The position numbers and the translations under genes were made by a program. A DNA stretch of 64,000 bases from Mayamaea pseudoterrestris (Eukaryota; Bacillariophyta; Bacillariophyceae; Sellaphorales; Sellaphoraceae), in assembly GCA_027923505.1 (NCBI GenBank), contig BROI01000004.1, positions 248,001 through 312,000 of the forward strand, written 5' to 3'. The notes below the pieces were generated by a model. It made no database searches and was not told the DNA's origin. It saw only the letters and a list, made by a program, of their open reading frames with translations. This document shows, one piece after another, positions 1,883 to 52,954 of this stretch; position 1 is the stretch's first letter; the number at the start of each line of letters is the position of its first letter.

Positions 1883-2794
1883 CTAATCGCTCTCATCCTC
1901 ATCAACTTCATTCTTCGCTTCATGTTCGTATGCACCCTTGTCAAGCTTCTCCAACAAATGCGGCGTTATAAATTGATTCATGGTGAACATGGTCACTTTA
2001 TCCTTCTTCATCACCTTTTTCAATGCATCGTCGCAAATAATTTCTCGCTTGTTGCTTGGATTCTGTAAATTGTGTGCCTTGATATAGACCCAAATTTCCG
2101 AAACTACTTGTGGTCGCGGCATAATTGGTTTGCCGACAACGGCGGCCAATTCGTCCGACAATAAAAAGGGTGGTTGGGTGCCAACCTTGCGCTTCTTTGG
2201 TGAAGCCTTTGTGGCAGACGCGGTCTTGCGCTTGCGCGACTCTCGCGTTGGCGTGTTGGACGAAAGATCGACTGGTTTGAAGGGGTGAATGTGAGCGCCA
2301 ACGTACTTGTTCATGGTGAACATTGTAAAAGTGTCGCAGCCGAAGACCTTCTTCATGGGTGCGTCTAACAAAATTTCCCTTCCATTGTTTGGATTTTGAA
2401 GGTTGTGCTCCTTGATGTATTCCCAAAGTTTCTTGACAATGGCAGTCCGAGCCATTTTGTTGCCAGCTCCCAAAAAGGCTGCTAGTGGCTCGCTGATTTC
2501 CTTCTCGGCGGCGAGTCCTCCGCCACCTTGTTTTGGTTTCTTCTTGAGTAGTAGTTCCAAATCCGAGTCCTCGCCATCGCTTTGGTGTTCATCTTCTTGC
2601 TCCTCGTCATCGGAATCTTCCGTCAGGGCATCCGTCAAGGCTTGCTTAATAAAGTCTTTGCGCGGCTTCAAATCAACGCCAAATTCTTTGGAAAGCTGCT
2701 TGATGAAACTCTTGATGGTCAAAGTCTCGGTATCGACTAACTTGACGAGCTCCTTGACTTTGATAACAACTTCATGATCGGATGGTTCCGTCAT
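1883..2794 (-). CDS. DEK-C and double SWIB/MDM2 domain protein
   Basis: 303 residues, single exon. The N-terminus (about 1-60) resembles the DEK C-terminal helical domain, followed by an acidic linker (EDSDDEEQEDE). Two SWIB domains follow at about 98-175 and 208-285; both carry the W-x-YIK-x-HNLQNP core and the FTMFTMN end. SWIB proteins are found in SWI/SNF-type remodelling complexes and, as UAF30/Spp27 homologues, in the RNA polymerase I upstream activation factor; the DEK-C plus SWIB arrangement is the Spp27 type. A nuclear role in chromatin or rDNA transcription is inferred from family. The two SWIB copies are clearly related to each other, suggesting internal duplication. Divergent from the gene at 3079. 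Confidence 0.9.
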   Translation of the reverse strand: MTEPSDHEVVIKVKELVKLVDTETLTIKSFIKQLSKEFGVDLKPRKDFIKQALTDALTEDSDDEEQEDEHQSDGEDSDLELLLKKKPKQGGGGLAAEKEISEPLAAFLGAGNKMARTAIVKKLWEYIKEHNLQNPNNGREILLDAPMKKVFGCDTFTMFTMNKYVGAHIHPFKPVDLSSNTPTRESRKRKTASATKASPKKRKVGTQPPFLLSDELAAVVGKPIMPRPQVVSEIWVYIKAHNLQNPSNKREIICDDALKKVMKKDKVTMFTMNQFITPHLLEKLDKGAYEHEAKNEVDEDESD

Positions 2795-3078
2795 AGCGAT
2801 AGAATATCGTTAACGATTGCAATGAACCGTTGGAATGCTTCAAGTCTCACGCTGTGAACGAACCTCTTCTTTCGTGGGTCATGTTGTTGGCGGCCCTCGT
2901 GTTCGCCGAAAGCGAAGCGCGGCCGCCGCGCTTTCAGTAACGGACCGACACGCCAAAATTTGAAACGGACCCGCGCTGCCATGACTGCGTGAACAACGAC
3001 CAAGTCGTTCCATCCTTGACAGCACCTTTGTCCTGCAGCAGCGCTATTAGTTAACCTGCGACTACCTCTACATACACT
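2795..3078. promoter_or_regulatory. Shared divergent promoter region
   Basis: 284 bp between the start codons of the SWIB gene and the giant STAND gene. It must hold both promoters and 5' leaders. I see no clear TATA box and no repeat. Confidence 0.4.
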
Positions 3079-6000
3079 ATGGAAGACTCGGCAAGCCATA
3101 CTGACGATGGAGCTTCTCAATACTCTGATGACGAAGGCTCGTACCATAGCGATGGTAATGGCTCCTATAGCGACGAACAATCGCAGCACTGCGGTTCAGC
3201 TGGAGCATCAATTCGTTCCGACGACGACAATGGTCGCAACAGACGGAGAAGAGGACGGGATCAATTAGCAAATGACAATGCAAGCTACGACTCCCAGCAA
3301 GAAAATTCTCAGGAAGGCAGTTACGACTCTCGCTCTCAGGCTGCATCTTCGCAGCAATCAGAGGCTCATGACGGTCAAAGCGACTACACTGGAGGTGACG
3401 ATGGATCACGTTCCTACTATAGCGACGAGCGATCAGGCAGTCAGCGAGACGATGACTATAGCAGAGGCTCGCAGTCTCGAGGGTCGCGCTCCTACTACTC
3501 GGGCGACGATGACGAGCGTTCCTACAGGTCGGGCTCGGATCAAGGGTCTCGTTCCTACTACTCGGACGAGGAACGTAGCCGATCATATCCAGGCTCGGAA
3601 CGATCTCGATCACCAGACTCATCTTATGCAAGCCAGAGTCAGTCAACCTACGAACAATCCCATGATATGCTTTCGCTAATACAGGAGGAAGACTCCAGGG
3701 CGGAGCAATCCATAATATCGGGCCCTTCGGTGATTGCAGAGGCATGGGAGCGAGAACAACGAAATGAAGCGGCGGTGCAGGAAGCTAGCGAAGACTACTG
3801 TAAGAGTAAAAAAATTTTTGTTTCGCAGCAGAGTCAGTCATTGCACGAGTCTCAACCACAAAAGTTCGATGGAGATGACACTGATCATGGCGACGACCAT
3901 CACGACGACGACGACAGTCGCTATAATGATCATGGCGACGACCATCACGATGATGACAGTCGCTCGCAACATTCGCAATCGTCCTTCAACTCGCAATCTA
4001 ATGGTTCACATTCGCAACAATCTGCCGGAAGCGATGCATTGTCATTGGAACGTAGTCGAACTGCACCGTTTGACGCAGGTTTTGGACAAATAGGTGAAGT
4101 GCACCAAAATAAAAACCAAAGAAACGGAGGAGACGACGACTTTGGGTTTGGCAATGATGCGTTTAGCGATGACGCTTTTGCAGACAATGTTTCACCGTTT
4201 GGTGACGGAGGTGCAGATTTCAGAAACAGCGAATTTGCTCCATCTGAGTCGGCTTTTGACACTGGTTTTAATGGCAATAATGAGTCGTCATTCGGTGCTA
4301 ATTTCAGCAATGGTGAAGATGCAAAAGTGCTTGGGCCGGGAGGCCAGGCAGACGCAGGGAGCTCCTCGTCTGACGCAAAAGTAGAATCTGACGATTGTAG
4401 TGGGAACGTTTGGGGTGATCGTGCTTTCCCTGAGTCTTCGCAGAATGAATCGTCGGTAATACTGTCAAGTAAAACTCCTGGTCGTATTTCAGCCGATAAA
4501 TTTGTACAAAACTCAGTGCGACCCCCAAGTTCTCGCCAAGTAAACGAGCATCCTACTGAAAGTGCTTCAAGCGCTCGTGTGGTGGCTACCTCGAGAGTCC
4601 AAGCATTAACAATGGCATTTAACCAGTCGGATCCGAGACAAAGAGCTGCGATGCTCTTGGCAAAGGCTGGTGATGCTTTTGATACCAACGACACTGCTGT
4701 CGATAGTTCCGCGAGCGAGCATTCTCAACGGAGCAATATTTCATCGCGATCTGGTTCCGACTCCTTGGTTGCAGACAACCAAAATAATCAGTTCGTTGGA
4801 GAAGACTCTCATCATTCAGGCCAAAGCCATAGCGGAATGTCAGCAAATGCAGCAGCTTGTAACGGTGGGAGAGATTTCGTCGACGCCGAAGGTGGTGAAA
4901 GTGCTGCAGAGTTGGAAGAACTTGAAGATTCACTGTCAATATCTAATCTTGAAGACTCATACCCTGGCCCATCCACTACGCGAAACAGGCAGCCTGACTC
5001 GAATAGATCTACAGAAAATGACTCAACCGAGGATGGCTCTCTGCAATCACGAGGATCAATAGCGAATTCGGACTCAAACGATAACAATCAGTTGATGGAG
5101 CAAAACTCAGATTCCCTAAGCGGGATACATACGAATGGCAAAAATCAATTTCCGACGGTCAAAGATGATCATTCTCTAGCTTGTGGCTCCCGAGGCCCTC
5201 GGTCGCACACGGAAGGGAGCGAAACTTCGTTTAAAAGTCTGCAAGAGTCGTGCTCCACGTCTGCGAGGAGCCACTCCCCGTCTTCAGCTGGATCGGCAGC
5301 GGATCTTTCGCGAGCAAGTGGCAATGGATCGCGAGGTTCTGAATCGTTTTCTCGTTTAGAAAGAAGTAATTCGCTTTCCGCTGACAGGTCAGACGCGTCA
5401 TATTCACAAGAAAGCAATCAACGATCGCGGGATTCTGGTTCAATTTCGCACTCAGAAGTGACCCGCTCTTCCTCGCCTGCCCAATCAGATGCATCTTTTT
5501 CGCAAAAAAGCGAAGATCGATCACGTGTATCAGAGTCATACTCGCAGTCGGAAAGAACCCGCTCCGTTTCGCCTGATGCGTCTGATTCGCAAAGAAGCGG
5601 CGATCGATCAGGTGTATCAGAGTCTTTTTCGCAGTCGGAAAGAACTCGTTCATCTTCGCCTGACGGAACAAATGCGACAGACTCTAAAAGAAGCGGCGAC
5701 CGTTCGCTGTCGGACAGAAGCTCATCGCCGTCGGGTTCATACTCCCACAGATCAGAAGATCGTTCAGTGACGAATAACTCCCAGACGCTTTCAAATCACA
5801 GTGATTATCACTCCGAGTCGTCGTCAATGGATGAATATCCGCCTTCGCATAGCCCGTCAAAGACATATGGAATGCATGCGTCAAATGCTCAGAATAGCAC
5901 AGGTACAAATGGATCAACAATGAATGATAGCACACCCTCGTTTGCTAACGAATCATCTGTAGAGCTAGGTGATAGTTTTAAGGACGAGTCGACATCCGAG

Positions 6001-9000
6001 CAAAGCCATACTGATCATGGACAGGTATATGTGGGTGCAACAGTTTTGAATGACAGCAGCGCCGGCAGTAGCGCAGCAGATTCATTTGCTGCAGAATCGT
6101 TTGCAAACGAATCAATTACTGACGGTTTCGACGACTCACCGGCACGAAATCCAGCGTCGGGTTCACCGCGTTCCCACTTAAAACCCAGTCCCGCTGTCGA
6201 TATCGAAAATGGCCAAGTCAATGAGGAGGCAACGCGAGTGTTTGAGAATCATGAGCAACAAGACGGATCACTTAGTGCTGACGCGGAAAACTCCTACAGT
6301 AGCGGCGATGAGGAAGACTCATTTTTTGAGAAAACGCTCATTGCGCAAGAACCTGACATGCTACCGCGCATTACAGAGCATAGCGTGGCTGAGAAATCTA
6401 ACTTTGACGAATCAGAATTTGGTCATTCGGCGCACGCAAGTGTCGGGGAGCTGAGCTTGAGAAGCATATTTTCATCGTCGAGCCGACGATCCCGTGTTCG
6501 ACGGGGCGCTGCGGGTTCCGTCGTTAGTGGTGCAAGTGGCATTCATAGTGTCGACACGCTTGACGTCTCAATCGTCAGTGGCATGAGCAATTATTCGGAA
6601 CAAGTAGAGGAGAAGGGACGAGGCTTAGCTCAGAAGAAAGGATACTCGCGAGAACAGATGAGGAAACTTCGACATGACCGACAAAAAGGTGACAGTGGAG
6701 AGTCAGCGACGGGTGAGGAGGCGAGCCGCGGAACGAGTGTCGGCAAAGGTTACAACGCGAAGAGGTCACGGAGCAAGCGTGCTAAAGTCAAAGTAAAAAG
6801 TGACTCTCTTTTAACTCTAGTCGCTAATGTGTCTGAAGCTATGGATGACATCGATAAAGAGGTTTTGGACGAAGAAGAAAAGAAGGAAGACGATGCATCA
6901 TCGGCAAAAGAGCTTCTTCTGGGTTTTGAAGCTCTCGTCGGAATTATCTTGCAATTTTCGGATGAGTTGGAGTTGATGTCGACCTTTGCAAGAAAAAGGG
7001 ATGCTGCTTCAATTGATGCATTACAAAGTCTTATTAACTTCGCTCCTGTTATAGATGACGTTTTCGTCGAGCTAAATCCGATTCTGCAGCAATGTTTAGT
7101 GGACGACGTCGATGAAGAAATGAATGATCTTTTGTATGGAATGAATTTGACTCTAGATTTGCTGTGCGAGATGACACACCTAGTCGGAGAGCGCCAGGAA
7201 TGGAACATCAGGGCCAACACCTCTTACGTGACATTGCTTGAGCTGTTATCTCGGGACGCTCTCGAAGTCGCGTGTATTTTTGATGACATCGACACACCTG
7301 AATATGAGTTGACTGAGCAGATTGAGGATGCGTGGTCAAATACGGGCCATGAAGAAGAGTTCAAAACGCTTCAAGTGACTGCCGACCTCACGATATTTCG
7401 CCAGATTTGTTATGATGTCATGCTTAGTGTGGACCATTGGTGTCCCGATATCAACACTCTTATGGATATATGCGGCATCGATGACACGATGCTCGAGAAT
7501 GAAACTGTAGAGGACCATCCCGATGATCGTATGTTTGAAACGCCCGAAACGGCGCTGCAGGTTCTAGAAAAGATTAACGGTGATGTTCTTCCTCGAACTG
7601 TGACCATGTCGAGAGTAATGCGGCGAATTATGCCAACTGATTTTATAACGGACCAATTGCAACGAGACCACATCCAAATGTTAAAAAGCACGGTCAGAGA
7701 CCAACTGGGACTCCCCGTGTCGAACTTAGTTGCCATCTCTTCCGCCCCAGAAGTGCTTAATGAGCCCGAATCACCCGGCATTGCTGGTGTTGGCAAGACC
7801 ACACTGGCTGCCATGGTGGCCAACCATCCCGACACTCGCAAGTTCTTTAATGATGGCATAGCGTGGATTCATATCGGCCAGAAGGAAGTGACTTACACGC
7901 GATATATACAATGCCTTCGGGAATTGATGGCTCAAATTGATATCGGAGATGACGAGGAACCGCTTTTCCCGGAATTGCTACACGTTCCATGCGAGTCGCA
8001 AGCAAGAAGGCGACGACGTGAGGAGGGATTCATGATGTATGCCCGTGAAATCATGGTCGATTTCCTTCAGTTTCGTAATGTCCTGATTATTTTGGACGAC
8101 GTCAGCTTCGAGCCCGATTTGGACTGGTTTGATTTTGATCCTGCTGCCCTTCAAACGGACGAAACCGACGACGAGTTTTCGTGCGTAATCCTTGTAACGA
8201 CACGCTGTCGAAACCTACTGCCTGCTGCGGACACGATTGAAGTTGACATGCTATCGAAAAGGGATTCAATCAAATTGCTGGTGCAGGAGTCTGGAGAGCT
8301 TGCCTCGAGTTTAAGTGCGTCGGCTCAAACCGAATCGGTTGTCAAAGAGTGCGCGTATCATCCATTGGCGGTGAAAAGTGTTGGACGTTGGCTTAATTTG
8401 AAGCATGCTACCGCTGGAGTATCCGATACGAATAGCGAAATGCACCAGGACGTCATTAACTCAATTGAAATGATTTTGAAAAGCGCCAATCAGGAAGATG
8501 CCGACATGATGTACGAGATATTGAATATGAGTCTTAGTCCGGCTATCAATGGCGAACCAACAAACATCATTAAATTTTGCTTTGCGGCTTTTGTACTGGT
8601 ATTTTGCGATAAGAACCAGATATCTGATTTCGCGCTAGCTGACGCTACGCCGATCGTTCCGCTTACAATTGCCGAGACACTTTTCGAGGCTCTTTTGCAA
8701 ACTGAAGAGCAAACATTGCTGCAAGAAGGAAGCTTATTTTACGCTCAAAAGAAGGAAGCCGCCGTTCTGATACCGGAGGCGCTCTCAGCTTTGGGTGTGT
8801 TGAAGGTGATTATCACTTTTACAGCCGCCGAGTCAACAGAGGAGGACAGCCAACCTGATGAGATAGAAGAAAAGTACCTGCAAGTCATGCATGCTGTCCA
8901 AGAGGAGTACGGCGAATACTTGTACCAAGAGGAGACGACGCTTGCGGACTTGACCAAAGACGCGCAGGAACGATGGAACCGGGCATTTGGTTTGGCTTAC

Positions 9001-11523
9001 TTAGCTAACGCACCCGATTGGGCAATGGAAACTCCCGATGCTGGAGTTGACTATGCCTTTGAAATGATTCCAGCGCATCTTATTTTAGGAGGGCTCTACA
9101 CAGAAGCGGCTGACTTGCTAACAAACACTGCATACGTCAAAGGCCGTCTGTTTGCTTTGGGGCGAGAAAATGGAACACGGCGGCAGATCAAGGATTGTGA
9201 GGCGCTTTTTGATCGGCTGCTGGAGAAGCGATTGACCGGAAAAAAGAAACTGGATCCGAAAAGCACCATGAAAAAGGCCTATGAGGTGCTTGGAAGTCTT
9301 ATTAACATGGATGAAGATGAATACATTGCGCAGGAGGGCTCCACTGAGGCGCTGGAAGTTGCACGCGCCCACTCTGAAATAGCCTTTTCTCTTGCGGAAA
9401 AGCGATGCTGGGATGCTGCAATAAAGAATTGGGAGATGAGTCAAGAATTGCTTGTCCAGTCGCTTGGAATGGTAGAGTTGGTTGCTGGCATCCAGTTAAA
9501 TATTGGCGTGTTGTACGGGGAGATGAACGAATTTGAGCGGGCACTGAATGCGATGAAGCAATGCTTGAAGATTCGGGGGGCAATTCATGGCGAAGAGCAT
9601 ATTCTTTATGCGCAAACAATCCAAAAAATTGGCGACATATTTTTGAAAATGAGCGACTATCACGAGGCGATGGAAAGCTACAACTGGGCATTGGATACGT
9701 TGCACGTCGAGCCCAGTCACCATAGAATCGACATCGGCGACATACTCGAAAACATGGGCAGTATTTATTACAGCAAAGGTGAAATCGACGAGGCGCTTCA
9801 ATGTTACCAAGATGCTTTGCGTTCAAAAGAAGTTGATCTTGGAGAAGACCACCCTGAACTTGCAACAACGTTCCAATTCATTGGCAATTGCTTGTCCGAC
9901 CAAGGAAAGACAGAAGAAGCAATAGCTCACTACGAGGAAGCAATCCGTTTAAAGCAGATGGATGCTGAAAGGGGTGGTGAACGCGAGGCCGACATATTAA
10001 CTATGCAAGGCGTTCTTCACAATCTCAACGGCCGACAACACGAGGGCCTGGAATGTTATGAAAAGGCATTGCAGGTTCTTGTAACGAAGGCTCCCCACAA
10101 GAAGGAAAAGGTTGCGTCGTTGCTCCATCTAATTGGTTGCGTGTACCTCATGAGTGGAGAACAGAAGAAATCAATGAAACTCTTTGAAGAAAGTCTCCAG
10201 GCGCGACGGAAAGTTCTTGGTTTCGTTCATCTGGATGTCGCCTCAACACTATTCAACATGGCTTTTCTTTTCCAATCTCGGAACCGTTTGGATAAGGCGT
10301 TAAAATGTCTCGAGGAGGCATTGAAAATCAGACAACTACGACTGCCAGACAGCGAGAAGGTCGCCATTACTCATGAAAAAATCGGGACGCTCGCAAGATC
10401 TATAGGGAAAACGAAGAAAGCAGAAATAGCGTTTAATGAGGCATTACGCATTCGCAAGTTGATTCATGGCAGCGATCACGAAGCTGTTGCAACAGTGCTA
10501 CAAGAGCTTGGAGACTTGATGGACGATCTCGGCGAGTATGACGAGGCAATGAAACATTATGTAGAAGCTCTGGACATACGTCAGACGCAACTGGGCCCCG
10601 ATGACCTTGCAGTCGCCGAAACGCTTTATTCAATGGGATTTAGCCTTCAAAATAACGGCGCGACTGGCCGCGCCTTACAATGTTTCGAAGAGTGTCTTTC
10701 AATTCGAAAATTTCAGCTCGGAGAAGATGCGATATTAGTCGGCGACGTTTTGAATATGATGGGGTATTTGCATGCCCAACGTGGCGAGCTGGATGATAGT
10801 CTTACGTTGCTTTGGGACGCGCTTCGAGTAAGGAAAATTCAAGACGATCACATGAAGGTTTCTGAGACACTGAAGAATATTGGGAATGTTCATCGAGAGA
10901 AGCAGGAACATGAGCTTGCGATCGAGTGTTACGAGGAGTGTTTACGTATAAGAAGAGCAGCGGTAGGCGACAATCATGAAAAGGTTGCCGACGCATTTAT
11001 TGCCATTGGCAACGTTCAAAGCGATCTTGATATGGTAGACGATGCTATGCGTTCTTATGAAGAAGCGCTACGTATTCGAACTATGATTCATGGAGAGCAA
11101 GATGAATCGGTAGCAGCAATCCTCCAGTATATGGGCACCCTTGAATTTCGCGCTGAGCAACTCGATCGCGCGTTGCAGCTGCTGAATGAGTTTATCCGTA
11201 TCCGTGAAGAAATCGGAACTGCAAACGATGGAGATCATGTTAATGTCTTGTTCATGATTGGTAACATTCATAAGTTAAAAGGGGAAGACTTTGAAGCCCA
11301 GCGATGTTGGACGGAAGCGTACAAGGTGTTTAAAGAGCTTGGTTTGGCCGATCCAGAAGTGGCTGCAGTAATGGAGCAGTTAGTGGGAGGGTCGGACTCG
11401 CATAGGGAATCTACTGCCGACTCGTTTCGCAAAGACAGCAACGACGGCGGAATATTAGGCAAGCTGACGCAGAAAGTGAAATCAACTCAACGCGCGAAGA
11501 AGAGCAAGGGACAGCAACTATAA
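3079..11523 (+). CDS. Giant STAND NTPase: Ser-rich, NB-ARC-like, TPR protein
   Basis: 2814 residues in one uninterrupted frame. Residues 1-1240 are Ser/Asp/Arg-rich with short repeats: RSYYS and HGDDHHDDDDSR near the start and a roughly 29-residue SQSERTRS-SPD unit near 800-890. Residues about 1250-1540 are helical and acidic. A P-loop GIAGVGKTT lies at about 1567, a Walker B VLIILDDV at about 1668, a VTTRCRNLL sensor at about 1707 and YHPLAVKSVG (GxP motif) at about 1758: the NB-ARC/STAND order. From about 2088 to 2758 there are some 15-16 kinesin-light-chain-type TPRs with a 42-residue period, then a basic tail. STAND ATPases act as ligand-triggered switches, often in defence or cell death; the ligand and role here are unknown. 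The low-complexity N-terminus could be phosphorylated or bind partners (inference). No membrane segment seen. Confidence 0.88.
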   Translation: MEDSASHTDDGASQYSDDEGSYHSDGNGSYSDEQSQHCGSAGASIRSDDDNGRNRRRRGRDQLANDNASYDSQQENSQEGSYDSRSQAASSQQSEAHDGQSDYTGGDDGSRSYYSDERSGSQRDDDYSRGSQSRGSRSYYSGDDDERSYRSGSDQGSRSYYSDEERSRSYPGSERSRSPDSSYASQSQSTYEQSHDMLSLIQEEDSRAEQSIISGPSVIAEAWEREQRNEAAVQEASEDYCKSKKIFVSQQSQSLHESQPQKFDGDDTDHGDDHHDDDDSRYNDHGDDHHDDDSRSQHSQSSFNSQSNGSHSQQSAGSDALSLERSRTAPFDAGFGQIGEVHQNKNQRNGGDDDFGFGNDAFSDDAFADNVSPFGDGGADFRNSEFAPSESAFDTGFNGNNESSFGANFSNGEDAKVLGPGGQADAGSSSSDAKVESDDCSGNVWGDRAFPESSQNESSVILSSKTPGRISADKFVQNSVRPPSSRQVNEHPTESASSARVVATSRVQALTMAFNQSDPRQRAAMLLAKAGDAFDTNDTAVDSSASEHSQRSNISSRSGSDSLVADNQNNQFVGEDSHHSGQSHSGMSANAAACNGGRDFVDAEGGESAAELEELEDSLSISNLEDSYPGPSTTRNRQPDSNRSTENDSTEDGSLQSRGSIANSDSNDNNQLMEQNSDSLSGIHTNGKNQFPTVKDDHSLACGSRGPRSHTEGSETSFKSLQESCSTSARSHSPSSAGSAADLSRASGNGSRGSESFSRLERSNSLSADRSDASYSQESNQRSRDSGSISHSEVTRSSSPAQSDASFSQKSEDRSRVSESYSQSERTRSVSPDASDSQRSGDRSGVSESFSQSERTRSSSPDGTNATDSKRSGDRSLSDRSSSPSGSYSHRSEDRSVTNNSQTLSNHSDYHSESSSMDEYPPSHSPSKTYGMHASNAQNSTGTNGSTMNDSTPSFANESSVELGDSFKDESTSEQSHTDHGQVYVGATVLNDSSAGSSAADSFAAESFANESITDGFDDSPARNPASGSPRSHLKPSPAVDIENGQVNEEATRVFENHEQQDGSLSADAENSYSSGDEEDSFFEKTLIAQEPDMLPRITEHSVAEKSNFDESEFGHSAHASVGELSLRSIFSSSSRRSRVRRGAAGSVVSGASGIHSVDTLDVSIVSGMSNYSEQVEEKGRGLAQKKGYSREQMRKLRHDRQKGDSGESATGEEASRGTSVGKGYNAKRSRSKRAKVKVKSDSLLTLVANVSEAMDDIDKEVLDEEEKKEDDASSAKELLLGFEALVGIILQFSDELELMSTFARKRDAASIDALQSLINFAPVIDDVFVELNPILQQCLVDDVDEEMNDLLYGMNLTLDLLCEMTHLVGERQEWNIRANTSYVTLLELLSRDALEVACIFDDIDTPEYELTEQIEDAWSNTGHEEEFKTLQVTADLTIFRQICYDVMLSVDHWCPDINTLMDICGIDDTMLENETVEDHPDDRMFETPETALQVLEKINGDVLPRTVTMSRVMRRIMPTDFITDQLQRDHIQMLKSTVRDQLGLPVSNLVAISSAPEVLNEPESPGIAGVGKTTLAAMVANHPDTRKFFNDGIAWIHIGQKEVTYTRYIQCLRELMAQIDIGDDEEPLFPELLHVPCESQARRRRREEGFMMYAREIMVDFLQFRNVLIILDDVSFEPDLDWFDFDPAALQTDETDDEFSCVILVTTRCRNLLPAADTIEVDMLSKRDSIKLLVQESGELASSLSASAQTESVVKECAYHPLAVKSVGRWLNLKHATAGVSDTNSEMHQDVINSIEMILKSANQEDADMMYEILNMSLSPAINGEPTNIIKFCFAAFVLVFCDKNQISDFALADATPIVPLTIAETLFEALLQTEEQTLLQEGSLFYAQKKEAAVLIPEALSALGVLKVIITFTAAESTEEDSQPDEIEEKYLQVMHAVQEEYGEYLYQEETTLADLTKDAQERWNRAFGLAYLANAPDWAMETPDAGVDYAFEMIPAHLILGGLYTEAADLLTNTAYVKGRLFALGRENGTRRQIKDCEALFDRLLEKRLTGKKKLDPKSTMKKAYEVLGSLINMDEDEYIAQEGSTEALEVARAHSEIAFSLAEKRCWDAAIKNWEMSQELLVQSLGMVELVAGIQLNIGVLYGEMNEFERALNAMKQCLKIRGAIHGEEHILYAQTIQKIGDIFLKMSDYHEAMESYNWALDTLHVEPSHHRIDIGDILENMGSIYYSKGEIDEALQCYQDALRSKEVDLGEDHPELATTFQFIGNCLSDQGKTEEAIAHYEEAIRLKQMDAERGGEREADILTMQGVLHNLNGRQHEGLECYEKALQVLVTKAPHKKEKVASLLHLIGCVYLMSGEQKKSMKLFEESLQARRKVLGFVHLDVASTLFNMAFLFQSRNRLDKALKCLEEALKIRQLRLPDSEKVAITHEKIGTLARSIGKTKKAEIAFNEALRIRKLIHGSDHEAVATVLQELGDLMDDLGEYDEAMKHYVEALDIRQTQLGPDDLAVAETLYSMGFSLQNNGATGRALQCFEECLSIRKFQLGEDAILVGDVLNMMGYLHAQRGELDDSLTLLWDALRVRKIQDDHMKVSETLKNIGNVHREKQEHELAIECYEECLRIRRAAVGDNHEKVADAFIAIGNVQSDLDMVDDAMRSYEEALRIRTMIHGEQDESVAAILQYMGTLEFRAEQLDRALQLLNEFIRIREEIGTANDGDHVNVLFMIGNIHKLKGEDFEAQRCWTEAYKVFKELGLADPEVAAVMEQLVGGSDSHRESTADSFRKDSNDGGILGKLTQKVKSTQRAKKSKGQQL

Positions 11524-48514: not shown

Positions 48515-51500
48515 ATGGCGGACGCCGCTATGGGACCTAGCAAAACGTCTCAGGACAGTGGCGGGCGAGGACGAGGACGTGGACGAGGTAGATTTGGAGG
48601 GCGAGGAAGAGGCAAGAGTGGTAGAAGTGGAGGAAGGGGACGATCTGATGGTCGAGGGCGCGGCTTGACTGTAAATGAAAATGTCGAGCTTTCAACCACG
48701 CCAACACTAAATGCAACAAGCGAGATTGGCCCGATCGAAGCTGTTGCAGCATCTGCAAAAGGAATTAAAGACTTGACGCTCAATCCGCAACGGACAGATA
48801 ATTTATCGAAAAAGGAGACGACAGCGGACGAACAGCCGTCATTACAGTTTGATGGAAAGGCAGCGAAACTACCTACAAAGAAAAGCAAGAGACCCAAACA
48901 GCTAATGAAAGCTAAAGCGAATGACAATAAGGAAGTTCAGAAGCAATCGAAAGGAACGAAAGGGCAGAAGCAGTCGAAAATGACGCCGAATTTACAGTCA
49001 ATGAAGGAGACGACAGCGGATGTACCGCCGTCATCACTAGTAAAAGAGGCGGAAGTGACCGACAAGAAACAGCAAAAGTCAGTAACTAGTAACGCGATAG
49101 ACGAGAAGTCCTTGCAATTACAACAGCCAAAGGGAATGAAAGACACACAAAAGAAACAATCGAACAAAGCACCGAAACCGAAAACATCAAAGAATGTTGA
49201 TGAACCTTCTGTTTCGCAATTGGCGCCGTCCATTCCACCAAATCAGCCTCAGCAGACGAGTGATCTTAATTACGCAAGAGGCTCCATGATCAAAGTATTG
49301 CACGTTGCGGAGAAACCTTCCATTGCCGATGCCATTGCCAAAGGCTTGGCGGCAGGATCCATTGTTCGACGAAGCGGCAAGTCACTACCTGTCCATGAGT
49401 TTACGAATCCACCATTCCCAAAGGCCCCGCACGCAGCCAGCTGTCAACATGTTGTAACTTCTGTCGCGGGTCATGTTTATAGTGTAGACTTTCCAGCGCA
49501 GTATCAAAGCTGGGATGCCGTTGATCCTGCCGAGTTATTCTCCGCTCCAATTACGCGCAAACCAAACCAGGGCAGTGTTGTTCGGCATCTGCAGACGGAA
49601 GCCAAAGGCGTTGATTTCATTGTGCTATGGATGGACTGCGATCGCGAAGGTGAAAACATTAACTATGAGGTTCTTGACTGTACCATGCACTTGATGAAGG
49701 CGGGTGGAAGTGCAGCCAACTTTGATCGAGTATATAGGGCACACTTTTCGGCGATCAATCCGTCGGACATTCAAAAAGCATATAAGACGCTCGGCAAACC
49801 TGACAAGAACCAGGCGCTCTGCGTCGATGCGAGACAGGAGCTTGATTTAAAAGTGGGTGTGGCCTTTTCGCGCTTTCAAACAAGGTTCTTTCAGGGTCAG
49901 TATGGGGACTTGGATAGCGCAGTTCTTTCATATGGACCGTGTCAGACGCCGACGCTTGGCTTTTGCGTTCAGCGCCACATTGACATGGAAACCTTCAAGC
50001 CAGAACCATTTTGGGTACTGGAACTCAATGTTTTGAAACGTGGTCGTAGCTTGAATGCACTTTGGGGATCTGGTCGGTCGTTCAACAGAAACCACGTGGA
50101 AAAGCTGTTGGACCAAGCGCTTTCCAGCGGAGTGGCTGTTGCGCAAGTGTCGGATGTCGTGACGAAGGAGAAGAAGCAGGGTCGGCCGATTCCGCTGAAC
50201 ACTACGGCGCTTTTAAAGGCATGCAGTAAGGCACTGGGTATTGGGCCACACGCCGCAATGTCAACGGCAGAGCGGCTTTACTTGATGGGCTACCTCTCGT
50301 ACCCTCGAACGGAGTCAAGTGCATATCCAAAGTCGTTCGACATTGCAGAAACGCTTCGACAACAATCATCCGACTCTCGATGGGGCAGCTACGTTTCCAA
50401 ATTGCTTCGCGAAGGGCACAACAAGTCCCGAGGTGGCGTTGACATGGGAGACCATCCTCCCATCACACCATGCCGAGCTGCTGGCCCACATGAACTTTCG
50501 GGTGACATGGCGAGAGTAGCGTGAGCAACCATCGTATTAAAAGACGCCGGCCAAGCCAGGTATCTTTATTGTCCGTTCATATTTTTTCAAATCAACTTCC
50601 GTTGATGGACCGACCGTCGGATTGATGGTTGCCACAAAATTGCGCAGCGGCAGTTGCATCGTTGACGATGGGAAACAAAAAATTCATTCCAACTACGATT
50701 CTGGATGGCTATTGATGATGAAGCAGCATAAGTAAGCAACTGCTGTGACTATGCATAGTGAAATGGTGCGCAACGGCTGGGCGGTTCACGCCGTCAACCG
50801 CCTTGTTGATGTTGTTTGTTGACTGCCAAAACAATGCATCAATGCATTAATGCTTAACACTCACATCCCGGTCATCATCTTTTTACAGCGCACAGGCATC
50901 TCATGCTCTTTCTAGTCAAGGTTCGAGGTTCATTCCGACTGACAGATGTTATTGACCATTGAACTGCATCGGCAGCCTTTTACTGCGACGTGCTAAAGCG
51001 CTAATTAAAGGATTCAAGTCAATATTTTATGTGATAACTATCCCTTCTGACGAATAGAAGCAAGTTGTAAGTGTATACTTTAGGATAAATGAGTATAGCA
51101 CTTGGAAGAGCGGCTGCAACTGCGATGCGGAAGGGCTGATGCATCTGGACCAAAGCTGGAGCAGCAGCGGGACCAATACGCCTCGTATGACAAAACTAAT
51201 TACACCAATAGATGCCGCTTAACTTAATTAATAGATCTAGTGCTTTAAATTTCTGTTAAGGACCAACTGTACGTACTATTCCTTGGAGTGCAGAGGGCTC
51301 ATACGGGTGTGCATCATCCTTCGTCGACTTGCAACTGGCCCAAGCCGAAACAAATTGTGAATGGATCTCGCCCGGCTCGATGAAGAACGGCGCGGCCGGC
51401 GTCTTTTAATACGATGGTTGCTCACTGTTTGTTGTACGGCACTTTATTGCATCCGTTTCTAGAGATGCCGTATGGAAGTCGACTAGGGTGGATTTTACCG

Positions 51501-52954
51501 TTGCTTCCCTTGGGGATAAGGGGTTGTTTGCGTTAAGAGGAAAGCAAATTGTTGATCCTGGCTTTTTGGAGATACTCCTACACAAGGAATACGGAGACGA
51601 TGCCGAAAAAAATGTAGACGGATATCACGACGCGGATGATGACGAAGAAGAAGACCGCGAGATTCCCGATTTTGCGAAAGGCGAAATCATTCCATTGACA
51701 AACAGCTCGTCATCCTCGAATGGATCAAAGAAAGTTGCCGTAGCCGCCGCTTTCGATGGAATAAGAGGATCGTTGCGCATCAAGGAGGGAGTAACGACGC
51801 CTCCAAAATATTTGACCGAATCTGAACTGATTGGTTTGATGGAACGACATGGCATTGGGACGGATGCAAGTATCGCAACTCACATTGAGAACATTCAGAA
51901 GCGGAATTATGTAGTACTTGAAACCGGGCGTCGTTTACGACCTACCCGTCTTGGCCTCGTTCTCGTGCAGGGATATCATCAAATCGACAGTTCGTTGGTT
52001 CTTCCTCGAGTACGATCTGATATTGAAGGGCAGTGTAACAAAATTGCGAAAGGCGAAGCGTCGAAAGACGTTGTGGTCGACCATGCTCTTCATCTGTTCC
52101 GGTCCAAGTACGACCTATTTGTAAAGGACATACAAAAGATGAATGTTTTGTTTTCAACTTCTTTCGCCAAGCTCGAAGACGTCGGCAAACCATTCACTCG
52201 ATGTGGCTTGACTCGTCGCTATCTTCAATTCATCGCTGGACCACCTCCTCGATTATACAATAAACATACCGAGACGGTGTACCCACTGCCGCAGGGCGGC
52301 ATAGTAAAGCAATGGAGCGGACGGTCATGTCCTGTGGAAGGATGTGGCTTTGAGCTGAGCATGTATTCGGTTGGACACCCCGAGCGATCGTTTCCATTTT
52401 GTCCTCGCTGCTATAACGCTCCGGAGTGGGCACTCGCGCAAGAGAGTTTGCCGGAAGATTTAGAGGAACAAGAGGACGAAGCAAAGGAACGACAAATTCG
52501 GAGAATTGCAGGGAAAAGCATGTGTCTCGAGTGTCCTCTTCCTGATCGACACCCTTTAATTGAGGAATTGACGGTGGCACTCGATCCCGACAGTGATGGC
52601 GTACTCGTAGTAGACGCGCACTTTGGTCCAAAGTGGAGATTGGTATCAACTCGCGCGCCAACAATCATTTATCTTTCGAAAAGCATTGATAACGTTACAG
52701 TTCTCGACGAGAGAGATGACGCATTCCAAGTGCACAAGATGAGAGTCGAGTTCAAGGCAAATGAGTCGCTTCTTCCCGACAAGAGCTCCAAATATGTGTG
52801 CTCCTTTACCACTGACGAGACCTTGCAAATTTCTAGTCGCGTTTTCCACGCAGCGGAAAGGACTCAAGGTGGTGGTCGGGGTAGGGGACGTGGCGGTCGC
52901 GGTGCTCGAGGAAGGGGTGGACGAGGCGGACGTGGTGGAACTGGTAGAAGGTAG
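48515..52954 (+). CDS. TOP3B: DNA topoisomerase III beta, interrupted by a TIR element
   Basis: Start ATG 48515 (CAACCATGG). The coding parts are 48515-about 50521 and about 51425-52954. Residues 1-60 are an RGG/RG box. The TOPRIM domain starts KVLHVAEKPSIADAIA (about 259) and has DCDREGEN (about 372). The catalytic Tyr is in GYLSYPRTES (about 596). After the interruption come RHFIASVSRDAVW, MERHGIGTDASIATHI, zinc-finger-like Cys pairs and a second RGG box at the C-terminus, the hallmark of TOP3B, which works on RNA as well as DNA. Removing 903 nt (50522-51424) joins GDMARVA to LFVVRHFIA without gap against TOP3B. A canonical GT(50521)-AG(51462) intron keeps frame but drops 13 conserved residues. 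Thus the splice form is uncertain, or the allele is disrupted. Confidence 0.9.
50521..50552 (+). repeat. Left terminal inverted repeat
   Basis: 32 bp, exact reverse complement of 51394-51425. Begins with the donor-like GTGAGC and ends GACGCCGGCC. Confidence 0.97.
51394..51425 (-). repeat. Right terminal inverted repeat
   Basis: 32 bp, exact reverse complement of 50521-50552. It carries an in-frame TAA (51407-51409) for the downstream TOP3B frame. Confidence 0.97.

Follow-up and report, generated by a model that had tools for sequence, protein, structure and literature searches.

The maize transposons Ds and Ds1, inserted into exons, are reportedly spliced from exon sequence, to go by the titles of articles by Dennis (1988), Wessler (1991) and Giroux (1994). 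An excerpt of PMC3260210 likewise cites titles on the maize Ds1 element serving as an intron and on the de novo synthesis of introns by Dissociation. Introners, as described in an excerpt of PMC9860276, include elements with terminal inverted repeats (TIRs) that carry their own 5' splice site and co-opt a 3' site; the same excerpt describes introners with loss or gain of neighbouring codons, and families whose size per genome runs from 5 to over 2,000. Transposon insertion into a gene is a known kind of event. Our literature search found no paper joining a diatom, a miniature inverted-repeat element and intron gain, and none joining a spliced-out transposon insertion, a donor splice site and a terminal inverted repeat.

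Here we describe a TIR element within the coding sequence of topoisomerase III beta (TOP3B) in the diatom Mayamaea pseudoterrestris, an interruption that a preliminary description of this DNA had proposed and that our analysis confirms. The locus lies in a window of 64,000 nucleotides (contig 4, hereafter C4, positions 248001-312000) of assembly GCA_027923505.1, which an excerpt of PMC12159174 lists with 11,017 genes; the assembly comprises 30.6 Mb in 41 contigs. Like Ds and Ds1, the element is a non-autonomous TIR transposon in an exon, and its in-frame removal between GT and AG is conceivable; unlike in maize, where splicing is reported in titles, splicing here is implied by the deposited protein alone. 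It resembles the introners of the PMC9860276 excerpt as an element with TIRs that carries a donor and would borrow its acceptor, with loss of neighbouring codons. It differs from them in having four copies, of which one lies in a gene, whereas an introner family is repeatedly found as introns.

Table 1. Positions of the interrupted gene, the element and the implied splice, numbered within the window
Feature	Position	Strand	Remark
TOP3B coding sequence, 5' of insertion	48515..50520	+	start codon as in MPSEU_000290600 (P0001)
Non-autonomous TIR transposon, probable extent	50519..51427	.	909 bp with outermost GC...TG; three further full-length copies; shared outermost bases
Left TIR	50521..50552	+	starts with GTGAGC, the donor of the implied intron
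Intron implied by the deposited protein	50521..51462	+	942 nt, GTGAGC...TTTCTAG, in frame
First in-frame stop if the insertion stays in the RNA	50522..50524	+	TGA, from translation
Internal segment common to other genomic repeats	51158..51250	.	93 bp, from assembly search
Right TIR	51394..51425	-	ends GCTCAC; in-frame TAA at 51407 inside
Conserved coding bases lost if the implied intron is spliced	51428..51462	+	FVVRHFIASVSR; segment in 117/117 other homologues
TOP3B coding sequence, 3' of insertion	51463..52954	+	translation matches P0001

A four-copy family of TIR elements

The perfect 32-bp inverted ends of the preliminary description were recovered at the same positions (37 nt at 95%), and no second inverted pair was reported between 50300 and 51700 (seed 9, minimum length 12). 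It had also suggested looking for other copies of the TIR in the genome, and this search yielded three further full-length copies. The four copies, on C4, C13, C6 and C15, have unrelated flanks; identity to the C4 element over nearly its whole length is 88% for C13, 75% for C6 and 74% for C15, and two more matches (L005 and L006) cover the interior only. Lengths in the family are 909, 950, 975 and 979 bp, with 2, 2, 5 and 2 mismatches between the TIR arms over 34 positions. With up to 3 mismatches allowed, the TIR pattern occurs at 8 sites, which form the four pairs, against 0 for a reversed-pattern control. A 16-base TIR core (up to 2 mismatches) occurs at 20 sites against 9 in the control; eight of the 20 are the known element ends, with 0 mismatches, and the remaining 12 carry 2 mismatches. 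These ends delimit three more copies, so the inverted repeat is not due to chance. No larger copy with these TIRs, and no TIR pair beyond the four, was found in the assembly, and the viral contigs contained no exact TIR match.

The TIRs of the C4 and C13 copies are identical at 68/68 positions, while their bodies show 51 differences in 827 aligned positions and, in addition, 69 gap columns; between the C4 and C6 copies the right ends are identical at 34/34 positions and the bodies differ at 148/808. Conservation is thus higher at the ends than in the middle, the pattern that a mobile family should show. GC precedes GTGAGC in the C4 and C13 copies, and TG follows GCTCAC in the C4, C13 and C6 copies, although the flanks are otherwise unrelated. 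Since these borders are shared despite unrelated flanks, we assign them to the element, which probably runs two bases further on each side than its perfect inverted ends. The family varies at its outermost bases, however: CG stands in place of TG in the C15 copy, and on the left the C6 and C15 copies carry GG where C4 and C13 carry GC. Inspection of the four copies by eye revealed no target-site duplication, and the insertion event itself is therefore not cleanly reconstructed. Instead of such a duplication, the TOP3B insertion site lacks six coding bases when aligned with its homologues, and by this alignment six bases of the gene appear to have been lost, either at the element's entry or afterwards.

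The TOP3B reading frame meets 20 stops within the C4 copy, which contains no open reading frame of 80 aa or more. The other copies enclose entire stop-to-stop frames of 71-80 aa, some of which resemble a frame in another copy; six of these short frames (71-80 aa; copies L002-L005) matched no Pfam family, and Rfam gave no match up to E 1 in 50400-51600. From its sequence features we classify the element as a non-autonomous TIR DNA transposon and take it to be MITE-like: it is short, has TIRs but no long reading frame, is dispersed and has no larger copy that we could find. It is unlike MITE-like transposons in showing no clear target-site duplication.

The preliminary description had also suggested noting whether other copies sit in exons; none of the three was seen inside a long reading frame. 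The C13 copy occupies a stretch without a long open reading frame, upstream of one reading frame whose first part presumably resembles a Zn2Cys6 regulator; the C6 copy has a long reading frame on either side, both on one strand, and the C15 copy beside shorter frames. Pfam matched none of the six reading frames tested next to these copies, so that "intergenic" describes their place by layout of open reading frames alone.

Among five Pfam transposase families, DDE_3 gave 3 matches in the assembly (2 over the cut-off) and DDE_Tnp_4 gave 3, while MULE, the hAT dimer and DDE_Tnp_1_7 gave 0, the last two also matching no control genome. The one of these six loci that was read, a candidate mobiliser near C4:652 kb with a DDE_3 match under the cut-off, had no TIR matching the element and was set aside; it has only the 93-bp segment in common with the element, beside tandem repeats of ~169 bp.

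Several other repeats were seen in the course of these searches. A tandem array at L054:19-1022, with a unit of ~169 bp, ends in the 93-bp piece; ~1.7 kb away, a reading frame (2766-3932, minus strand) has a weak DDE_3 match. The same piece recurs on C14, C33, C27, C1, C2, C3, C5, C11 and others, in other non-coding repeats with inverted ends and, on C27, in repeats spaced ~173 bp apart. The DDE_Tnp_4 matches (C4:58411-58827, C1:1904134-1904574 and C11:619556-619735), which we take to be Harbinger-type, include a 460-aa open frame at the strongest. A 2-kb element with inverted ends TATTGCCG...CGGCAATA is present in two copies that are 99% identical (L021:2247-4251 and L022:3778-5783), and a related type with ends TATTGGCG occurs at L026. 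Finally, C27 carries two copies (L023:2976-5847 and 7030-9901) that are 99.97% identical over 2,872 bases, lie ~4 kb apart and contain reading frames.

The interrupted TOP3B gene and its deposited protein

Joining the two coding parts of Table 1 gives a translation identical to the deposited protein MPSEU_000290600 over all 1165 aa. The deposited protein is thus the exact join at 50520/51463 and already implies a canonical GT...AG intron, which makes the non-canonical intron of the preliminary description unnecessary, the canonical pair lying at the very junction that it had named. In Pfam the protein matches Toprim and Topoisom_bac, and its best solved relatives are TOP3-beta-1 chains. Topoisom_bac has four matches in the assembly, of which two are the halves of the interrupted gene and the others lie on C8 and at C4:28099. 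The gene on C8 scores highest against TOP3-alpha chains (4cgy, 491 bits), with 351 bits for the best of the TOP3-beta chains, and shares 31% identity with P0001. The gene at C4:28099 (L018:679-4206) encodes, in one open frame, a type IA topoisomerase with Toprim C-terminal repeats (Toprim_C_rpt) and a C-terminal HMG box, and its identity is 21% over 290 aligned positions. TOP3B is therefore present once in the assembly.

Much of what had been said of the junction held. The left TIR supplies the GTGAGC donor that the deposited protein uses, the right TIR has no AG and carries an in-frame TAA, and the TTTCTAG acceptor, 37 nt beyond the right TIR, keeps the frame; the intron drops LFVVRHFIASVSR, leaving the protein a net 13 residues shorter. 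From the donor at 50521, the acceptor at 51462 is the first past the right TIR to leave the frame open, and the next ones, at 51486 and 51537 (considering positions up to 51600), would delete more. Of 120 listed sequences, two from trypanosomatids were left out, and the remaining 118 (P0001 and 117 other homologues) were aligned. The segment after the junction is gap-free in all 117, and P0001 alone is without it. The implied intron thus has the GT...AG boundaries and kept frame of a U2 intron, but its removal takes away a segment that every other homologue aligned retains.

The preliminary description had also found that removal of 903 nt gives a gap-free fit to TOP3B. Frame and length are indeed kept, and the resulting protein can be aligned to the TOP3-beta-1 chains with no gap at the junction, but the residues are wrong: the removal creates Ala-Leu at the junction, found in 0/117 homologues, which have Tyr (109) or Phe (8) at the first position and Asp (62), Glu (43), Gln (11) or Asn (1) at the second. 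Ala-Leu is partly encoded by bases that border other copies as well, so we regard the gap-free fit as a coincidence of length. Removal of 909 nt leaves the two junction codons absent.

Outside the junction the gene looks well conserved. Alignment A4 has 208 near-invariant columns, defined by identity in at least 93% of its 31 sequences besides P0001. P0001 differs at 8 of these columns, by 4 substitutions and 4 gaps, and sequence P0002 at 2; all 4 gaps fall within the missing segment, and 2 of the 4 substitutions are common to P0002. Counted against 14 outgroups, which share branches and are not independent, private changes upstream of the junction number 11-21 in Mayamaea versus 12-25 in P0002 (Mayamaea fewer with 10 outgroups, more with 3, equal with 1), and downstream 24-36 versus 16-33 (Mayamaea more with 10, fewer with 4). 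From these comparisons TOP3B appears free of gross decay, and the counts fit a recent insertion, perhaps with slight downstream relaxation, or a gene still in use. The 11 residues directly past the insertion, FVVRHFIASVS, are unchanged from P0002. This suggests disruption rather than an established intron, as these residues have been kept although they would have been free to decay had they long been intronic.

Disruption, splicing or removal

We consider it probable that the transposon disrupts the only TOP3B gene in the assembly, or one of its alleles, and that the implied intron is a gene-model bridge across the insertion. Of the three readings offered earlier, a recent disruptive allele fits best, the recency itself being presumed. 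In this account a non-autonomous DNA transposon of the four-copy family entered the TOP3B coding sequence, presumably fairly recently, with the loss of six coding bases, and the locus as sequenced is a disrupted gene or allele that would have lost its function. Translation of unspliced RNA would stop as early as codon two of the insertion. A GT...AG bridge from the element's GTGAGC to the first in-frame acceptor would remove a nearly invariant segment, and because of this its product is probably inactive. Most likely, then, the implied intron is a bridge made in gene prediction rather than an adapted intron, and we infer that useful splicing is absent at the insertion. Against disruption, the implied frame-keeping GT-AG intron may rest on RNA reads, and the rest of the gene may be intact enough for a functional product. 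A sub-case that overlaps with disruption is a heterozygous insertion, in which the assembly would show the occupied allele and an intact allele would supply the protein. The good conservation of the rest of the gene and the single locus in the assembly are in keeping with this, but the assembly shows no intact allele, and we hold it to be a serious possibility rather than the expected outcome.

That the spliceosome now removes the transposon as a true intron, with the element's donor, a pre-existing TTTCTAG acceptor and a shortened TOP3B that is tolerated, seems to us unlikely, although the deposited protein uses exactly this junction, the intron is canonical and in frame, and the remaining gene is conserved. 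It would remove the segment kept in all homologues, and 0/3 of the other copies were seen inside a long reading frame. Moreover, in the predicted RNA fold of 50500-51480 (-320.9 kcal/mol, z -5.16 versus 20 shuffles) the whole left TIR pairs with the right TIR and the donor lies inside the 32-bp stem, which might hide the donor or, alternatively, bring both splice sites close. Both sites also score low in a rough splice-site model with unreliable candidates (acceptor -3.06 versus 1.8 to 8.3 in 41 accepted; donor 2.1 versus 2.1 to 6.0); this model, from ab initio intron detection, was discarded as evidence because it was too noisy. Both ends of the element read GTGAGC from outside inward, so that, whichever way the element inserts, its upstream border would carry a 5' splice site. 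Still less likely, in our judgement, is the case in which the element has only just become an intron by way of a host-exon acceptor and TOP3B works without the near-invariant segment, an intron birth with a costly first step. Exact removal from DNA or RNA at the TG...CA ends, restoring an intact TOP3B, is the explanation to which we give the least credence: the 903-nt removal keeps frame and length, but it leaves Ala-Leu where all homologues have [YF][DEQN], the GC...TG junction bases border other copies too, and the assembly has no second, empty locus. Precise DNA excision, as put forward earlier, is not supported in either form tested, since neither the 903-nt nor the 909-nt removal gives the conserved sequence. 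A chimeric assembly, with the repeat misplaced into the gene, is scarcely more credible. Beyond the fact that the element is a repeat, nothing speaks for it; the TIRs are intact at both boundaries, the gene continues correctly on each side, and there are 4 copies only, the nearest of them 6.2% different in aligned body positions.

These results document, in a diatom, a low-copy TIR family and a single-copy TOP3B gene that it interrupts. They also illustrate how a deposited gene model, by taking a transposon for an intron, can lose conserved residues unnoticed. If the implied splice is true, the locus would instead represent the birth of an intron with a measurable cost to the protein.
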